Source of the DNA: Nanobdellati archaeon
GTDB lineage: Archaea > Nanobdellota > Nanobdellia > UBA10117
Reading direction: 5' to 3'
Assembly (NCBI GenBank): GCA_016204275.1
Contig: JACQKZ010000018.1
Location: forward strand, 1-39,106
DNA: 39,106 nucleotides
Shown here: piece after piece, positions 3-28,514 of the stretch
How the letters are laid out: every line of letters starts with the position of its first letter
Position numbering within the stretch: the first letter of the stretch is position 1
The notes under the pieces: model-generated
Seen by the model: only the letters and a program-made list of their open reading frames with translations
What the model was told of the DNA's origin: nothing
Databases searched by the model: none
Position numbers and translations under genes: made by a program

Positions 3-785
3 GGGGAAACAGTAATATTTTTTGATAACGATAGTGTTGCCCAGCAGAATTATTTGAAAACACTTTTCAAATTTTTAGCAGATCATCCTGAGATTGACAT
101 TGTTGGCGGACCGCAAACAAATTCCGCTGAGGGCAGCTTCTTCGCACGGGCTGGCGGCGCAACCCTAACATCATTTTTTGGTACGTTTACAATGTCATCG
201 CGCTACAAAAAAACGAAACTGAATCTTGGTGCTGATGAGTTCAGCCTGACAACTGCAAACGTCGCTATTAGAAAAAAGATTTTTGGTAAAATTGCGCCGT
301 TTAACACAAATATTTATCCTGGCGAGGATCCTGAGTTGTTTGCCCGCGCAAAAAACAGCGGATTCAAAATTGCATTCGATCCAGAAATTGCTGTCACACA
401 CGGCCGGCGCCCAACTCTTAAAGCGTTTTGTAAAATGTTTTTTGTTTATGGGCGGACAAGGGTGATAAAAGAGCAGGCCACGCCAACTCCCTTCCCGAAA
501 AGCCTGCTGTTTGCTCTGCCTTCACTGTTTTTGATTTCGCTTTTCGCGCTGCCTTTGCTAAGTTATTTTACAAAACTATTTCTTCTGCCATTTGCAGTTT
601 ACATTCTGGCGGCGGTTAGCTTCTCGGTCGAGGCTGCAATTTACAACCGCGTTCCTCTGGCATTCTTAATACTGCCATTTTTATTTATCTGTGTGCATGT
701 TTGTTACGGCGCCGGCTATCTTGTCGGCCTGACAAAAAAGAAACAGAAGTTTGACGCGCACGATGTTTACAAAGGCGACACGTAA
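3..785 (+). CDS. Family 2 glycosyltransferase, 5' truncated by window edge
   Basis: The reading frame is open from the first bases, so the N-terminus lies outside the window. The visible part starts with a GT-A style FFDND motif, the DxD nucleotide-sugar/metal site. It continues with the acceptor-side GEDPEL motif and a downstream VTHGRR histidine, the order usual in GT2 enzymes. Three hydrophobic segments follow at the C-terminus (from SLLFALPSLF to GAGYLVGL), so the catalytic domain is anchored in the membrane. The TTG at 54 is an internal codon, because the DND motif lies upstream of it. Likely role: transfer of a sugar to a lipid-linked or surface glycan. Substrate unknown. Confidence 0.8.
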   Translation, partial: GETVIFFDNDSVAQQNYLKTLFKFLADHPEIDIVGGPQTNSAEGSFFARAGGATLTSFFGTFTMSSRYKKTKLNLGADEFSLTTANVAIRKKIFGKIAPFNTNIYPGEDPELFARAKNSGFKIAFDPEIAVTHGRRPTLKAFCKMFFVYGRTRVIKEQATPTPFPKSLLFALPSLFLISLFALPLLSYFTKLFLLPFAVYILAAVSFSVEAAIYNRVPLAFLILPFLFICVHVCYGAGYLVGLTKKKQKFDAHDVYKGDT

Positions 786-1300: not shown

Positions 1301-1858
1301 TTAAATCAAATCCGTTTTAGTAATTATCCCAACAATCTCGCCGCGCTTTGTTACTAATACGCAGCTTTTTGATTTCAGCAGGCCTGCAATCACAGACAGA
1401 GGCGCGTCCTCCGGCACCTGCGGCGGCGCATCGAGCATGATATCTTCAACTTTTGTTTTTGAATTAATCTTGCCGAAGTTTTCTATGATAGCCTGCTCTG
1501 AAAGCAAGCCAACTATTACATAACGCACCGAAATGATTTTCCACTGTTTCCACAACACCGGCATCTGCGATATGCCTTTTTCCTTCATTTGTTTTACTTT
1601 GTCTTTAACTAAATCAGAAACTTCCGCAGTAAGAACTTTTGCAGTCATTATATCTGCCGCGGTTTTCTCATTCTTGTGTTCCGCCTTATCAAGCGCTCCA
1701 AGAATCCTCAGCGCAGTTGAATATGTGATATCATTCAGGCTTCCGTTTTCTATTTTTGCGATTAGGGACTGAGAAACCTGCGCCTGCGTGGCCAGCTGGT
1801 GCTGAGTCAGTTCCAAAACTTTTCTTCGCCTCTGAATTGCCTGTAAATCATATTCCAT
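1301..1858 (-). CDS. HTH-XRE transcriptional regulator with C-terminal CBS pair
   Basis: Residues about 4-57 form a Cro/C1-type helix-turn-helix (LTQHQLATQAQVSQSLIAKIE). Two CBS domains follow, beginning near AADIMTAKV and VEDIMLDAPP. This is the architecture of the archaeal COG3620-type regulators, in which CBS domains probably sense adenine nucleotides. In the first CBS domain the segment between PVL and VGLLSE (KQWKIISVRYVI) is longer and more hydrophobic than the usual short turn there, which may be a local insertion. The gene is divergent from the paralogue array starting at 1931, with only 72 bases between starts, so it is a candidate regulator of that operon. Confidence 0.85.
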   Translation of the reverse strand: MEYDLQAIQRRRKVLELTQHQLATQAQVSQSLIAKIENGSLNDITYSTALRILGALDKAEHKNEKTAADIMTAKVLTAEVSDLVKDKVKQMKEKGISQMPVLWKQWKIISVRYVIVGLLSEQAIIENFGKINSKTKVEDIMLDAPPQVPEDAPLSVIAGLLKSKSCVLVTKRGEIVGIITKTDLI

Positions 1859-1930
1859 TAGGAATAATCTTAGCAGTAATTATTATTAAGCTTTTCTGTG
1901 ATTAAGTAAACAGTTCGAAGGGATGAAAAA

Positions 1931-2437
1931 ATGAGCTTAAAAAATTTGGAGCATGCCATTGAAACACATGGCGAATGGGAAAAACTGGAACAACGAAGGC
2001 ACGCGGTTGAAACTGCGGCACAGCAGGCAGAGCTGGCCATAAAAAAGGAGCAGGAAAATGCCCTGGCAGCGGAAAAACTGCCGATAGCAAAAAAGATTTT
2101 TGCTTGGGTTTCTGATTTTGCGGTGACAGACACTTACAAAAAAATTCTCGCAGGCACAAGCCAAGGCGGAGTCCACATTTACGGCGGCGGCTGGGGGCAC
2201 GAAGTACCGCATAGCGAAGGCTTCGGAATCTGGTCGAGGCTCGATGTGCGGCCGGACGGAACACTCCGTTACATTGCAGGATTCAAGTACGCAGGCGGAA
2301 GGCAAATAGATTTTGCAACACCAGAACAGCTGGCCGCGGGATTGAATCACACATACTTATTTCGCTTGTGGAACAAAATAGAAACTGAAGAAGTTTACGG
2401 AATAATAGAGAACTGGCATTTCAGGAGTGGAAAATGA
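1931..2437 (+). CDS. Tandem paralogue family protein, copy 1
   Basis: First of four adjacent paralogues, 168 residues, family not recognised. It starts with MSLKNLEHAIE, shared almost exactly with the next copy. It then has a charged helical stretch to about residue 50, a conserved I-x-x-W motif (IFAWVSDFAVT), a GGGWGHEVPH motif near residue 90, an aromatic/Gly stretch (YIAGFKYAGG), and a C-terminal helical block FATPEQLAAGLNHTYL. No signal peptide or membrane helix is visible. A four-codon reading frame (1923-1934) overlaps the start in the same ATGA manner as the other junctions. The stop overlaps the ATG of copy 2 by four bases. Confidence 0.85.
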   Translation: MSLKNLEHAIETHGEWEKLEQRRHAVETAAQQAELAIKKEQENALAAEKLPIAKKIFAWVSDFAVTDTYKKILAGTSQGGVHIYGGGWGHEVPHSEGFGIWSRLDVRPDGTLRYIAGFKYAGGRQIDFATPEQLAAGLNHTYLFRLWNKIETEEVYGIIENWHFRSGK

Positions 2438-2958
2438 GCTTAAAAAATTTAGAACACGCAATTGAACTAAAAGTGCAAAAAAACGAAGCTGAAGAAAAAA
2501 ACCGTCACCGCGAAATATTAAAGCGGAAAAAAGAAAAAAGGCTTGCAAGGGCTGAAGAAGAACGGCGTGCCAAAGAGAAAAACAAACACGCAACAGAAAT
2601 TTTCGGCTGGGCAAAAGGCTTTGTTGCAACGCCGGCATACCAAAAACTTTTGCGCATAGCAGCGGAATACCCCTATTTAGAAAAAACTGTTTTTATTTAT
2701 AGCGATGGCTGGGGGCACGAAGTACCGCATAAAAATGAACGCGGGTGCTGGTCAAATATTAGCCTGAGTCCGAATGCAACATTTTCATACGAGGCAGGCT
2801 ACAAATGGATGGGCGTATCTTTTTCGTTTAAAGCTGAAACACCTGCAGATTTAGCAGATAGACTAAACCACACCTTTTTGGAAGAATTCCTGCAAGCCAT
2901 AAAATCAGAGAAAATTTACCACGCGATAAAAGACAGATATGCGAGGGAGCAAAAATGA
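2434..2958 (+). CDS. Tandem paralogue family protein, copy 2
   Basis: This 174-residue protein is the second copy. The N-terminus MSLKNLEHAIE is identical to copy 1 over 11 residues. The following region (about 12-52) is extremely Lys/Glu/Arg-rich and predicted coiled coil. The conserved core follows: IFGWAKGFVATPAY, DGWGHEVPHKNERGCW, YEAGYKWMG, and a C-terminal LADRLNHTFLEEF helix ending near SEKIYHAI. GWGHEVPH is identical to copy 1, while the linkers are strongly diverged. Start and stop both sit in ATGA overlaps with the neighbours, so translation is probably coupled along the array. Function unknown. Confidence 0.85.
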   Translation: MSLKNLEHAIELKVQKNEAEEKNRHREILKRKKEKRLARAEEERRAKEKNKHATEIFGWAKGFVATPAYQKLLRIAAEYPYLEKTVFIYSDGWGHEVPHKNERGCWSNISLSPNATFSYEAGYKWMGVSFSFKAETPADLADRLNHTFLEEFLQAIKSEKIYHAIKDRYAREQK

Positions 2959-3476
2959 GCTTAAAATATTTGGAAGACTGCTTGGACCGAGAAGAGAGGT
3001 ACATACAAAAAGAAAAGCTGCGCACAGGCGGCAGAAAAAAACCCGAGCTTGCCACGGAAGCAAAAGCAAGAGAGGCAGGCCTGCATGGCGAAAGGCTTGC
3101 ACTGGCAGAAGGCATTTTTCAGTGGGTGCAGGAATTTTCTGCCACAGAACAATACTGCAGGCTGCTGATAATAGCACAGCATCGCTGCACAAATATGATA
3201 AAAATACCCCTTGGCGGATGGGGGCATAACGGGCATTATGAAACTAGTGGCGGGCGCTGGTCTGGTGTCAGCATTGTGGAGGACAAAAGCCTGCATTACT
3301 GGGCAGGGCGCAAGTGGCTTGGCATAAATTCCAGCCTGCGCATAGCAACACCAGAAGAGCTGGCCAGCAAGCTCTGCCATGGCTATCTGGATAAATTCGC
3401 CCAGGCGTTACGGTCTGAAAAAGTCTATGAGATAATTGCGCAGGCAAATCTGATTTACGCGGAGGCAAAAAAATGA
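2955..3476 (+). CDS. Tandem paralogue family protein, copy 3
   Basis: This 173-residue third copy starts with MSLKYLEDCLD and has a basic coiled-coil-like N-terminal third. The core is recognisable but more diverged: IFQWVQEFSATEQY, GGWGHNGHYETSGGRW, HYWAGRKWLG, then ATPEELASKLCHGYLDKF and SEKVYEII. The EVPH part of the WGHEVPH motif is replaced by NGHY. WGH, the following Gly-x-W and the A-T-P-E-E-L-A helix persist, which marks them as the likely functional core of the family. Linked to copies 2 and 4 by ATGA overlaps. Confidence 0.85.
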   Translation: MSLKYLEDCLDREERYIQKEKLRTGGRKKPELATEAKAREAGLHGERLALAEGIFQWVQEFSATEQYCRLLIIAQHRCTNMIKIPLGGWGHNGHYETSGGRWSGVSIVEDKSLHYWAGRKWLGINSSLRIATPEELASKLCHGYLDKFAQALRSEKVYEIIAQANLIYAEAKK

Positions 3477-3982
3477 GCTTAAAAGATTTGGAAGAAAGTT
3501 TAAACCGAAGAGAAACTGAATTGGCGAAAGCAAAGCGCAGTGAGCGCGCGGAAGAGCATAGCCATGCAAGGGCAGAGAGTTGCGCGAGGAAAAAAGATAC
3601 TGCGCTGCTGGGCGAGAAGCTAAAACTGGCAGGCAGCATAATGGACTGGGCAGGCCAGTTCGCAGGAACTAAGCAGTTCACGCGCCTAAGAGCCATAAAC
3701 CCTTACGGATATATTGATGGTGTGTTGGTTTTTGGCTCTGGGTGGGGGCATCAGGCAAAGTATGAAGATTTCAGGGGTTGCCATGCCGGAACTTACGTTA
3801 ATCGCAACGGAAACCTGAAGTACTGGGCTGGCTTCAAAAATCAGGGCGGTGTTGCGTACGGCTTTGCAACTCCAAAAGAGCTGGCTGGCAGGATGAACCA
3901 CGAGTACTTAAGCATGCTCTGGCAGGCAATAGATTCGGGAAGCATTTACGATGCTATCAAAAGGGCTCATGGTTTGAGGTGA
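3473..3982 (+). CDS. Tandem paralogue family protein, copy 4
   Basis: This 169-residue fourth copy starts with MSLKDLEESLN, followed by a charged helix rich in Arg, Glu and Ala. Core motifs are IMDWAGQFAGTKQF, GSGWGHQAKYEDFRG, KYWAGFKNQGG, and FATPKELAGRMNHEYLSML, ending near SGSIYDAI. The pairing of WGH with YxAGxKxxGG and ATPxELAxxxNHxYL matches the other three copies, so the family diagnosis rests on four independent sequences. The zinc-ribbon gene starts only 3 bases after its stop, so it belongs to the same transcript. Confidence 0.85.
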   Translation: MSLKDLEESLNRRETELAKAKRSERAEEHSHARAESCARKKDTALLGEKLKLAGSIMDWAGQFAGTKQFTRLRAINPYGYIDGVLVFGSGWGHQAKYEDFRGCHAGTYVNRNGNLKYWAGFKNQGGVAYGFATPKELAGRMNHEYLSMLWQAIDSGSIYDAIKRAHGLR

Positions 3983-3985
3983 AAA

Positions 3986-4138
3986 ATGGCGCGCATAAAT
4001 ATTTGTTTCAACTGCGGCAAAACAAGGAGAAAAATAAGGTTTGTTGCGCCTTATATTCCATCGTGCTACATGTGCACGCCAAGAAGCTGGGAGAAAAGGA
4101 CTGCCTGGAAAAGCGGGGTGTTTGAAAAGAGCATATAA
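3986..4138 (+). CDS. 50-residue zinc-ribbon-like protein ending the paralogue operon
   Basis: A short reading frame starts 3 bases after paralogue 4. The sequence begins MARINICFNCGKTRRK and carries two CxxC pairs (C7-x2-C10 and C27-x2-C30) spaced as in a small zinc ribbon. It is rich in Arg and Lys, which fits nucleic-acid binding, and ends in KSGVFEKSI. The position directly behind four co-directional, coupled paralogues suggests a shared role. I do not recognise a named family. The zinc ligand pattern is seen; binding of zinc is inferred. Confidence 0.65.
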   Translation: MARINICFNCGKTRRKIRFVAPYIPSCYMCTPRSWEKRTAWKSGVFEKSI

Positions 4139-4209: not shown

Positions 4210-5679
4210 ATGAAATACCTCTCAAAGTCCAACTATGTCATCGGCCTGAAATGCCTGCGCCACCTATGGCTGGCCTTTAATGAGCCGGACAAGCTGCCCG
4301 ATATAGCCGAAACAACAAAGCAAAGATTTGAGCAGGGCCACATCATAGGCAAGCTGGCACAAACACTTTTTCCCGGCGGTGTGGACGCGCAGCTGCCGAA
4401 CCAATTCCTCGAGTCAATCGAACGCACGAAAAAACTTCTTGCGCAGAGAAAAATCCTTTACGAACCGGCAATTGCGGTTGGCAGGCTCTACGCCCGCGCA
4501 GATATTCTGCTGCCAGTAAACAAAGACGAGTGGGATATTGTTGAAGTCAAAAGCTCCGCTAAGGTAAAGGAAGACCACCTGCACGATCTCTCATTCCAAA
4601 AATACTGCTGCGGAAATGCCGGCCTGAAAATCCGCAAGTGCTTTCTGATGCACATAAACAACAAATACATAAGAAACGGCGAAGTTGAGCCAGAAAAATT
4701 ATTTGTAAAAGAAGATGTTACTGATGACGCTGAGAAGGCTGGCAAGGGAATAAAAGACCGGATTGAAATGATGCTGAAAGTAGTTGAAAGGAAGTCCGCG
4801 CCAAGCGTCAAGGATGAGCGCTGCTGCAAAGGCCCGAGCCACTGCGATATTGGCTGCTGGGATTTCCTGCCAGACAATAATATATTTTACCTGCAAAGAA
4901 TTGGCGAAAAGGCGTTTGAACTTTTTGACACTGGTGTTATTAACATAAAAGACATTCCGGAAAATTATGAGCTAAATGATAAGCAGGCCATCCAGCGAAA
5001 GTGCGCGAAGACTGGCCAGCCGCACATAGAAAAAGAAAATATAAAAAAATTCCTTGCAAAACTGAAATACCCGATTAGTTTTCTGGACTTTGAAACATAT
5101 TCAACAGCTATACCACTTTACGACGGGCTGAGGCCATACCAAACCGTTCCATTCCAGTTCTCTATGCATATCATTGAAAAAGAAAATGGCAAGCCAAAAC
5201 ATATTTCATATCTGGCTGAAGGATCTGAAGACCCCAGAAAAGAATTTTTGGAAAAACTGAAGGCTGGCCTGCCGGAAAGCGGCAGCGTAATTGTATACTA
5301 CAAAAGTTTTGAGCAGGGAAGAATTGAAGAACTTACAGAACTTTTTCCGAAATACAAAAGCTGGGCAGAGTCAGCAATAAAACGAATGGCCGACTTAATA
5401 ATCCCATTCACTGAATTTTATTATTATAATTCGAAGCAGGAAGGTAGCGCCTCCCTGAAGGCAGTCCTGCCTGCACTCACAGGAAAAAGCTATAAGGGGC
5501 TTGACATTGGTGAAGGTGAGACCGCATCGCTCAGCTACGTTTACATCACACACGGCGCGGACGGAAAGAAAGCAACGCCAGATGAAGTTAAAAAAATCAG
5601 AAAAGACTTGGAAATCTACTGCGGGCAGGACACTGAAGGAATGATTTGGATTCTAGACGAGCTGAGAAAACTTGCTTGA
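4210..5679 (+). CDS. Fe-S PD-(D/E)XK nuclease fused to DUF2779 exonuclease-like domain
   Basis: This 489-residue protein has two parts. The N-terminal half has a RecB/Cas4-type nuclease pattern: D98 (ARADIL), E112-x-K114 (IVEVKSS) and a nearby Gln (FQKYC). It also has one early Cys (C15, GLKCLRHLW) and a later cluster C205, C206, C212, C216, the arrangement of a Cas4/AddB-type Fe-S cluster. The C-terminal half matches DUF2779, a DEDD-like exonuclease fold: FLDFETYS (D293, E295), YYKSFEQGRI and YCGQDTEGM (D474). A DNA repair or nucleic-acid processing role is inferred. The ATG at 4210 fits a leaderless start behind a TTTTATT box. Confidence 0.85.
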   Translation: MKYLSKSNYVIGLKCLRHLWLAFNEPDKLPDIAETTKQRFEQGHIIGKLAQTLFPGGVDAQLPNQFLESIERTKKLLAQRKILYEPAIAVGRLYARADILLPVNKDEWDIVEVKSSAKVKEDHLHDLSFQKYCCGNAGLKIRKCFLMHINNKYIRNGEVEPEKLFVKEDVTDDAEKAGKGIKDRIEMMLKVVERKSAPSVKDERCCKGPSHCDIGCWDFLPDNNIFYLQRIGEKAFELFDTGVINIKDIPENYELNDKQAIQRKCAKTGQPHIEKENIKKFLAKLKYPISFLDFETYSTAIPLYDGLRPYQTVPFQFSMHIIEKENGKPKHISYLAEGSEDPRKEFLEKLKAGLPESGSVIVYYKSFEQGRIEELTELFPKYKSWAESAIKRMADLIIPFTEFYYYNSKQEGSASLKAVLPALTGKSYKGLDIGEGETASLSYVYITHGADGKKATPDEVKKIRKDLEIYCGQDTEGMIWILDELRKLA

Positions 5680-5766: not shown

Positions 5767-6111
5767 ATGTGTATGAATATTTGGATTAGAGAGCTGGAAA
5801 GGATAAATCGAAAGTTCGAGCCAGCCTCACGGCTAAAGAACCCGGGCAGCCTGGAGTTTGCGGCAGAACATGCCTCCAGAGCAACGGACTGGCGGATGCA
5901 GCTGGCCTACCTGCTGCGCGCAATCTTGGTGGACCACGCATTTGAGGATGGGAATAAGAGGACTGCGGCATACTTAGTAACGTACATCATGGAGCAAAAC
6001 AACGCGATGCATAACGATGATAGGGTAAAAAAATTAGTAATCAAAATTGCAGCGGAAAATATAACACACATAAATAAAATTGCGAGGATGGTACAAGATG
6101 AAACTATATGA
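5767..6111 (+). CDS. Doc-like Fic-family toxin
   Basis: This 114-residue protein carries the Fic core motif as HAFEDGNKRTA starting at H57. The lysine after the asparagine is typical of Doc-type proteins (HxFxDGNKR), which phosphorylate translation factor EF-Tu, rather than of AMPylating Fic enzymes (GNGR). Length is close to Doc. A TATA-like CTTTATAAAT box about 25 bp upstream supports the ATG at 5767; the ATG two codons later is an alternative. The next gene overlaps by 14 bases and encodes a ribbon-helix-helix protein, so a toxin-antitoxin pair is likely. Family membership is well supported; the target is inferred. Confidence 0.8.
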   Translation: MCMNIWIRELERINRKFEPASRLKNPGSLEFAAEHASRATDWRMQLAYLLRAILVDHAFEDGNKRTAAYLVTYIMEQNNAMHNDDRVKKLVIKIAAENITHINKIARMVQDETI

Positions 6112-6322
6112 TGAGGGACATTTCAGGAAACACGCAGCCTTATTTGACGCGCTTGCTGAGTATGACCGGACTGGCCGGGTCCCAAAGCTAAACTACAAGA
6201 AACGGATTGACATCACAATAGATGCGGCGCTGCTGAGAAAGCTAAAAGAATATTGCCGAAGGCATAATTTAAAACTGTCGCAGATGATAGAAAAGCAGAT
6301 GAAGGGTTTATTAGCCAACTAA
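6098..6322 (+). CDS. Ribbon-helix-helix protein, putative antitoxin of the Doc-like toxin
   Basis: This 74-residue protein overlaps the Doc-like gene by 14 bases. The C-terminal half (KRIDITIDAALLRKLKEYCR then LKLSQMIEKQMKGLL) has the beta strand followed by two helices of a ribbon-helix-helix DNA-binding dimer. The N-terminal 30 residues (KLYDEGHFRKHAALFDALAEY) are a candidate toxin-neutralising segment. The ATG at 6098 is chosen because a GAGG Shine-Dalgarno-like sequence precedes it. Toxin-first order is the reverse of classical phd-doc. Autoregulation is likely for the family, but no operator is obvious. Confidence 0.7.
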   Translation: MKLYDEGHFRKHAALFDALAEYDRTGRVPKLNYKKRIDITIDAALLRKLKEYCRRHNLKLSQMIEKQMKGLLAN

Positions 6323-27097: not shown

Positions 27098-27155
27098 CGA
27101 GAAGGCCTATTTTCTTAACAGGCAGGTTTTTATTGTTGGGATTCTTGGGTTGGAT

Positions 27156-28514
27156 ATGGTAGATATGGAATTTGAGGACGGAAAGCATCATGGGAATAAA
27201 GGAAAGCGCCTTTCTGAAGAAACGAGAAGAAAGATAAGTGATACCCACAAGGGAATGCGCGCTTCTGAAGAAACCAGAAAAAAATTAAGTGAATCTCATA
27301 AAGGAAAAATAAGTGGGATGAAGGGAAAACATTATTCTGAAGAAATAAGAATAAGAATGAGCTTGGCGCAGAAAAAAAGATTTGCTAATCCTGAAGAGAG
27401 AAAAAGAGTTAGTGAAGTGTCTAAAAAGACCTGGGCCAATCCTGAATTAAGGAAAAAACTAAGTGATATTAGTAAGAAATTTTATTCGAATCCTGAAGCG
27501 AGAAGAATGTCAAGCAAAGCTCATAAAGGACAGCTCGCTTGGAACAAAGGAAAAACAGGAATTTATTCTGAAGAAACTAAACGAAAAATTGGTTTGGCAA
27601 GTAAAGGAAGAAAATTATCCGAAGAGCATAAAAGAAAAATAAGAGAAAATGCGCACATAAACCAAAGTTTTGGTATGAAAGGTAAACATCATTCTGAAGA
27701 AACAAGAAGAAAGTTAAGTCTATCCCATAAAGGACAGATTCCAACAAATTTAGAACAATTAAGGCGAATTAGTATGGGGCATAAAGTGAGTGAAGAAGTA
27801 AGAAGAAGAATAAGCCTTGCAAATAAAGGTAGAAAACATTCACAAGAATCAATAGAAAAAAATAGATTAGCTCATCTTGGGAAGCCTACTTGGAATAAAG
27901 GCAAGAAAATGCCCGAAATGTCCGGCGCAAAGCACCATATGTTTGGTAAAACCCATTCTAAAGAATCGCTTAGAAAAATGAGCGACTCTCATAAAAAGCA
28001 AATGGCTAACCCCGAATTTAGAAAGAAATTAAGTGAAATTCATAAGAAAAGATTGTCTAATCCTGAAGAAATGAAAAGACAAAGCGAAATTAGTACTGCA
28101 ACGCTTTTAAGATTATATGAATCTGGAACTTTCCCACGCCAAACAAATACAAAACCCGAACGGCAGATAAAAGAAGAATTACTAAAAAGAGGATTTGTTG
28201 AAGGTGAAGATTTTATCCACCAATACAAATTTAATAATAAATTTATGTGCGACTTTTGTTTCCCTCAGCAGAAACTTATTGTTGAGGTTTATGGCGATTT
28301 CTGGCACGCCAATCCGCAAAAATATCAAGACCGAACTAAGCTTCACGCACATCAACTAAAAGATATTGGGCGAGATAAAGCGAAAGAAGCATACATAACT
28401 ACGGTTGATAATCGTTCTTGGACTTACTTCGTTCTTTGGGAAAGTGATATTGAAAAAGATGTAGCTGGGTGCGTTGATAAAATCGAAGAAGTACTAAATA
28501 AGAAAAAGCTTTAA
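27156..28514 (+). CDS. NUMOD3-repeat protein with Vsr-like endonuclease domain (free-standing homing endonuclease type)
   Basis: This 452-residue protein has about 300 residues of repeated NUMOD3-type DNA-binding units with the core KGKRLSEETRRKISD or variants (SEETRKKLSESHKG, SEEIRIRMS, SQESIEKNRLAH). The C-terminal 120 residues form a PD-(D/E)XK/Vsr-like nuclease: KPERQIKEELLKRGF, MCDFCFPQQKLIVEVYGDFW and YFVLWESDIEKD. Codon and base use is clearly more AT-rich than the neighbours, which fits recent transfer. The ATG at 27156 is chosen over the TTG at 27150 because a TTTTTATT box lies about 27 bp upstream. No intron boundaries are visible. Confidence 0.85.
   Translation: MVDMEFEDGKHHGNKGKRLSEETRRKISDTHKGMRASEETRKKLSESHKGKISGMKGKHYSEEIRIRMSLAQKKRFANPEERKRVSEVSKKTWANPELRKKLSDISKKFYSNPEARRMSSKAHKGQLAWNKGKTGIYSEETKRKIGLASKGRKLSEEHKRKIRENAHINQSFGMKGKHHSEETRRKLSLSHKGQIPTNLEQLRRISMGHKVSEEVRRRISLANKGRKHSQESIEKNRLAHLGKPTWNKGKKMPEMSGAKHHMFGKTHSKESLRKMSDSHKKQMANPEFRKKLSEIHKKRLSNPEEMKRQSEISTATLLRLYESGTFPRQTNTKPERQIKEELLKRGFVEGEDFIHQYKFNNKFMCDFCFPQQKLIVEVYGDFWHANPQKYQDRTKLHAHQLKDIGRDKAKEAYITTVDNRSWTYFVLWESDIEKDVAGCVDKIEEVLNKKKL

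Follow-up and report, generated by a model that had tools for sequence, protein, structure and literature searches.

The four tandem paralogues of the window (by which we mean the whole stretch of DNA analysed, 39,106 nucleotides, contig C2 of a 705-kb assembly that is 68% complete) are probably regulated as part of a methionine/SAM regulon, under a divergently transcribed HTH-CBS regulator. Together with the gene for a small zinc-ribbon-like protein they would constitute one operon, a reading drawn, like the regulon itself, from sequence and computation. The evidence that carries it is an operator dyad found ahead of the array, of its relatives in other archaeal genomes and of genes for methionine and SAM synthesis.

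The layout is given in Table 1; UBA10117, a Nanoarchaeota MAG, is the nearest named relative found. The first-pass annotation of this DNA described four consecutive paralogues with MSLK starts and shared blocks, and so they prove to be: the genes have 168-174 codons, all four open reading frames are intact with their motif cores kept, and the alignment has 30 invariant columns, including W59, F63, T66, GWGH at 87-90, Y114, A116-G117, K119, T130-P131, L134-A135 and H140. The same annotation had every junction as an ATGA overlap, which is true of the three junctions inside the array; the fourth is a gap of 3 bases (3983-3985), at exactly the distance at which it had also placed the 50-residue CxxC/CxxC gene. 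No fifth copy of the MSLK family was found elsewhere in the window's genome. The zinc-ribbon gene is present only in the window and UBA10117 among the genomes scanned; matches in G161, G167, G052 and G044 were marginal and were not accepted.

Table 1. Features of the array and its divergent regulator (window coordinates)
Feature	Coordinates	Strand	Remarks
HTH-CBS transcription regulator (P0006), HTH_3 + tandem CBS	1301..1858	-	Pfam CBS 3e-13, HTH_3 1e-7
Operator dyad TATTCCATTAGGAATA	1851..1866	.	exact ATTCC-N4-GGAAT; overlaps regulator start codon
Candidate TATA element ATTATTATTAA of array promoter	1879..1889	+	about 25 bp from operator centre
Candidate Shine-Dalgarno GAAGGGATG ahead of paralogue 1	1917..1925	+	by sequence inspection
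Paralogue 1 (P0001)	1931..2437	+	168 aa; ortholog of single UBA10117 gene (72% identity; core 79%)
Paralogue 2	2434..2958	+	174 aa; overlaps paralogue 1 via ATGA
Paralogue 3	2955..3476	+	173 aa; overlaps paralogue 2 via ATGA
Paralogue 4	3473..3982	+	169 aa; overlaps paralogue 3 via ATGA
Zinc-ribbon-like protein, CxxC-x16-CxxC	3986..4138	+	50 aa; 64% identity to UBA10117 copy, dN/dS 0.14

Other genes of the surroundings may be recorded here. A Cas4-like plus DUF2779 protein (its Pfam run made on the window copy only) lies 3′ of the zinc-ribbon gene in both the window (4210-5679) and UBA10117 (L010:6812-8257), on opposite strands, and a glycosyltransferase-like gene stands beside HTH-CBS in the window (54-785) and, as two ORFs, in G001 (L048:618-1549). 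Window positions 5767-6322 hold the gene for a Fic/DOC protein, overlapped by a small ribbon-helix-helix-like ORF; the two may be a toxin-antitoxin pair. A 454-aa protein at 27150-28514, read by eye, has many SEExRRKISxxxKG-like (NUMOD3-like) repeats and an endonuclease-like C-terminus and is possibly a homing-type nuclease.

A scan of archaeal genomes for the conserved core, of the kind that the first-pass annotation had proposed, covered draft assemblies of 378 genomes of the class and 371 of the phylum and found homologues in 12 genomes of the class, the window's own included. Nine others are true members with one gene each (G005, which is UBA10117, and G030, G129, G138, G261, G293, G403, G405 and G432), and G112 has a single degenerate copy. 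In G001, of the same genus as the window, the contig starts inside the locus, with a Shine-Dalgarno sequence and the MSLK codons at the contig end beside HTH-CBS; the family is apparently present there, its copy number unreadable because of the contig end. Matches in G044, G065 and G459 covered short stretches only.

The divergent regulator is as first annotated, with one HTH_3 and two CBS domains. It is the sole copy in its genome, its UBA10117 orthologue is 65% identical and occupies the same position, and its relatives, present in roughly one in four of the class genomes scanned, align with it over the full length. An HTH-CBS gene was found in all family carriers except G129 (11/12, a count that takes in two carriers known from contig-edge remnants), a co-occurrence with a Fisher p of 8e-5 in the class scan and of 0.008 after dropping those two remnants. 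Moreover, the two genes adjoin in seven genomes, in divergent or tandem layouts: the pair is divergent in UBA10117 and G403; in G432 the regulator is divergent from an operon of two genes, one for a 261-aa protein and the other the family gene; in G293 the layout is tandem, with HTH-CBS upstream; and in G001 and G261 the adjacency is read from contig-edge remnants (a few codons plus flanking sequence). In G030, G138, G112 and G405 the regulator is located away from the family gene. The 261-aa protein of G432 (L045:4389-5174), ATGA-coupled to the family gene downstream of it, has no match in Pfam or NCBIfam.

The regulator is predicted, with strong support from conservation, to bind the dyad AATATTCC-N4-GGAATATT. 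Among 92 HTH-CBS loci (90 from the class scan plus G403 and G432), 65 have a dyad of the form ATTCC-N3-6-GGAAT with at most one mismatch near the regulator start, 19 of them exact, against 3.7% in shuffles; the spacer is nearly always N4, and the wider form is the one just given. The window dyad has a dinucleotide-shuffle p of 0.0005 and is conserved in UBA10117, in G001 and in the distant G432. When 61 dyads are aligned, the regulator side shows the dyad overlapping or abutting the TATA/start region, and the target side shows a TGTCAA-like box followed by a TATA-like element. In the window the spacing from operator to the candidate TATA element matches that of aligned HTH-CBS/SAM-synthetase promoters; the start codon of the array lies 72 bp from the operator centre, with a leader and its Shine-Dalgarno sequence intervening. 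At several SAM synthetase, MTHFR and Cys/Met genes the distance from dyad centre to start codon is 52.5-54.5 bp.

Seven or more family promoters also have the dyad upstream, four of them in genomes with the regulator elsewhere. In these unlinked cases it is exact in G112 and has one mismatch in G030, G405 and G138, with dinucleotide-shuffle p values of 0.001-0.01 each and a centre 52-57 bp from the start codon, a spacing like that at SAM synthetase promoters. Two genomes do not follow the pattern: neither HTH-CBS nor operator was found in G129, and G403 has no clear dyad, yet its HTH-CBS adjoins the family gene. There is, in addition, a second HTH-CBS subgroup, with SQAH and not SQS in the recognition helix and the motif GTTATAATTATTAAT in place of the ATTCC dyad, whose members are divergent from an archaeal-type SAM synthetase at L052:5170-5270 and L053:1560-1645.

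The company that the regulator keeps points to methionine and SAM. A SAM synthetase of bacterial or archaeal type is immediately beside HTH-CBS in 20 of the 92 loci, and the regulator is divergent from MTHFR in G138 and from Cys_Met_Meta_PP, a Cys/Met PLP enzyme, in G297. A genome-wide scan with the pattern TATTCY-N4-RGAATA gave 1-5 sites per genome, and most of the intergenic ones are located at the promoters of SAM synthetase, MTHFR, MetE-like, HTH-CBS and family genes. G405 has four sites, every one of them intergenic, at SAM synthetase, at HTH-CBS, at the family gene and at a radical-SAM-like/L7Ae pair; G112 has its intergenic sites at an operon of MTHFR and SAM synthetase, which is divergent from HTH-CBS and from a 436-aa gene, and at the family gene; in G432 they are between HTH-CBS and family operon and ahead of a MetE-like pair; and in G138 the intergenic site lies between HTH-CBS and MTHFR. 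The window genome has two further sites, one inside a gene (C9:599) and one at C28:12422 (L186:1423), its sole other intergenic operator-like site, between divergent ORFs whose starts are 39 and 44 bp away. The link between array and regulator that the first-pass annotation drew is borne out by the co-occurrence, by repeated adjacency in distant families and by the common operator; the nucleotide signal that it proposed is better narrowed to SAM/methionine status, because genes for SAM synthetase, MTHFR, MetE-like and Cys/Met enzymes lie near the regulator or carry its operator, which makes SAM or methionine the more likely CBS input than a generic nucleotide.

SAM synthetase was found in five family carriers. 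Searches with PF02773 and PF01941 did not find it in the window genome, G001, G005, G293, G403, G129 or G261, where the genomes searched are 68-98% complete, the window genome being at 68% and one negative carrier at 98%. The window array would be regulated like a member of the regulon whose enzyme target is missing in its lineage, which would make this a regulon without the enzyme that gives it its name, since SAM synthetase was not found in the window genome. From these seven genomes we conjecture that the signal to which the system responds in such lineages may be host-derived SAM or methionine. A bolder version, in which a SAM-sensing DPANN HTH-CBS regulator with its own operator was left without its biosynthetic targets in host-dependent lineages and has come to drive a new protein family, here in four specialised copies, that obtains or spares host SAM or methionine, seems to us unlikely.

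As for the proteins themselves, the first-pass annotation recognised no known system of this composition, and for the libraries searched the family does stand as undescribed: no family in Pfam or NCBIfam (judged at curated cut-off), PHROG or PADLOC matches the core, 11 family members had no match among PADLOC defence families, and no homologue was found in viral contigs or in phage and plasmid collections. Pfam/PHROG matches to DDRGK, DUF2526, DUF7623 and Fimbrial_CS1 concern short helical stretches far under cut-off and leave the core unmatched, and a PDB sequence match to AopB spans the N-terminal helices only. Single-chain structure prediction, also proposed at the outset, succeeded: AlphaFold2 models the full chain (pLDDT 90) as a long helix over residues 3-44, two further helices (46-64 and 67-75), four strands and another three helices, a topology that is likewise computed from sequence, and the core alone reaches pLDDT 92 and pTM 0.86. 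Foldseek with either model against PDB and BFVD returned nothing at E <= 0.001; matches to the DnaK substrate-binding domain (E 0.07-1, TM about 0.25, rmsd about 10) were rejected. The conserved cluster, W59, W88-G89-H90, W101-S102, Y114 and K119 in paralogue 1 numbering, looks like a binding pocket, and the fast-evolving long N-terminal helix looks like a partner-specific arm.

The coils at the N-terminus had been described as more diverged than the cores, and the figures bear this out, with 8-20% identity between window paralogues in the helix past residue 8 versus 34-39% in the core, and a dN/dS for paralogue 1 against its UBA10117 orthologue of 0.54 in the helix and 0.19 in the core (0.28 overall). 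The four paralogues are 33-39% identical in protein and 47-52% in DNA, with dS from 1.7 to saturated; since DNA identity is so low and dS is near or at saturation, they are not recent tandem or assembly duplicates, the possibility that the first-pass annotation had itself raised against the array. In the tree, paralogue 1 groups with UBA10117, and paralogues 2-4 have branches of the same length as those leading to other families in the class. Either these three arose before the UBA10117 lineage split off, and were lost from it, or they diverged unusually fast; apparently, the paralogues predate the split.

We propose the following mechanism. The HTH-CBS protein would belong to a DPANN regulator family for methionine/SAM supply, and its tandem CBS domains would sense how much SAM, or some related adenosyl compound, is present, which we infer because the common targets make methionine and SAM. 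It would repress itself, since the dyad sits on its own start, on or beside the TATA/start in most loci. On the target side, where the TATA-like element follows the dyad by about 25 bp, the array would be switched alongside SAM-supply genes by activation or by relief of repression, and a dyad upstream of that element is compatible with activation. The proteins, as modelled, would present a conserved alpha-beta core with an aromatic/His/Lys cluster on a long, fast-evolving N-terminal helix, and they would most likely be soluble accessory proteins, every copy having the same pocket and each helix a different partner; the window lineage would have kept or gained four copies. From the pocket-like cluster and the arm-like helix it is possible, as a tentative assignment and one more doubtful than the regulatory one, that they are accessory proteins of methyl-donor supply or use. 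The family probably helps these archaea to cope with changing methyl-donor supply.

The strict ATGA coupling, the conserved cores and the survival of all four genes with their motif cores, in paralogues apparently older than the UBA10117 split, are what one might expect of four distinct, translationally coupled subunits assembling in a fixed order, with the zinc-ribbon protein as a fifth part. This was the hypothesis of the first-pass annotation, which suggested checking whether array size varies between relatives. It does: no array of several copies is kept in the relatives with a readable locus, and the gene is single in all ten other genomes where it is readable. UBA10117, the nearest readable locus, manages with one copy beside the same regulator and zinc-ribbon gene, and each of nine further genomes also has one, which argues that a four-subunit assembly is not obligatory and leaves the fixed-order hetero-oligomer improbable; mixed oligomers in the window organism are compatible with single copies elsewhere. 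Still less probable is a conflict module, that is, a fast-evolving tandem array with an immunity, toxin-like or recognition role, accompanied by an HTH_3 repressor and spread horizontally. Its patchy occurrence (9 true carriers among 378 genomes of the class) and fast-evolving N-terminal helix would suit such a module, as would the case of G261 and G293, members of different families in which the family protein, the intergenic DNA and the HTH-CBS end are nearly identical (L022:5402-6010 and L023:3178-3786), which suggests that family gene and HTH-CBS were transferred as a unit. However, nothing matches in PADLOC, PHROG, viral contigs, phages or plasmids, the core is under purifying selection, and the operator is one that SAM synthetase, MTHFR and MetE-like promoters also carry.

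The remaining alternative leaves the regulon intact and changes the signal. CBS pairs commonly bind AMP/ATP, and the HTH-CBS family profile finds its strongest PDB match in MJ1225, not MJ0100. Ligands of CBS domains include ATP, AMP and SAM (PMC1282579). The regulator might then read energy status through AMP/ATP, with methionine and SAM genes targeted for their ATP cost and the family forming part of an energy response. We consider this about as improbable as the fixed-order assembly, for it is specifically SAM synthetase, MTHFR, MetE-like and Cys/Met enzymes that are enriched among the targets and bear the operator. The methionine/SAM reading, which we prefer, would give a widespread, uncharacterised archaeal regulator family an operator and a set of targets, and would make HTH-CBS a candidate for the archaeal equivalent of SAM repressors and SAM riboswitches; it would also assign to methyl-donor metabolism a protein family that is otherwise unreadable, and would do so even for small genomes without a detected SAM synthetase. 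We found no previous description of the regulon or of the family, in a literature coverage that mostly excludes subscription journals, so an earlier report is possible.

Among known systems, P0006 has the architecture of archaeal HTH-CBS regulators that are annotated merely as transcription regulators with CBS domains, and most HTH-CBS loci of the class have other neighbour genes, the MSLK family standing beside a small subset only. The CBS pair of MJ0100 (PDB 3KPB-3KPD) binds SAM/MTA. The HTH-CBS family profile matches this pair with an E of 2e-17, a match to CBS domains generally, in which MJ1225 and others score higher and which so points to no one ligand. The closest functional parallels are bacterial: MetJ, SahR and the SAM riboswitches are likewise small regulators or elements that a common operator links to SAM synthetase, MetF, MetE and Cys/Met genes, a likeness that here we infer from neighbourhood and operator. 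Unlike them, the present system would combine an archaeal HTH_3 domain and a CBS pair with an operator of its own, and would count an uncharacterised protein family among its targets.
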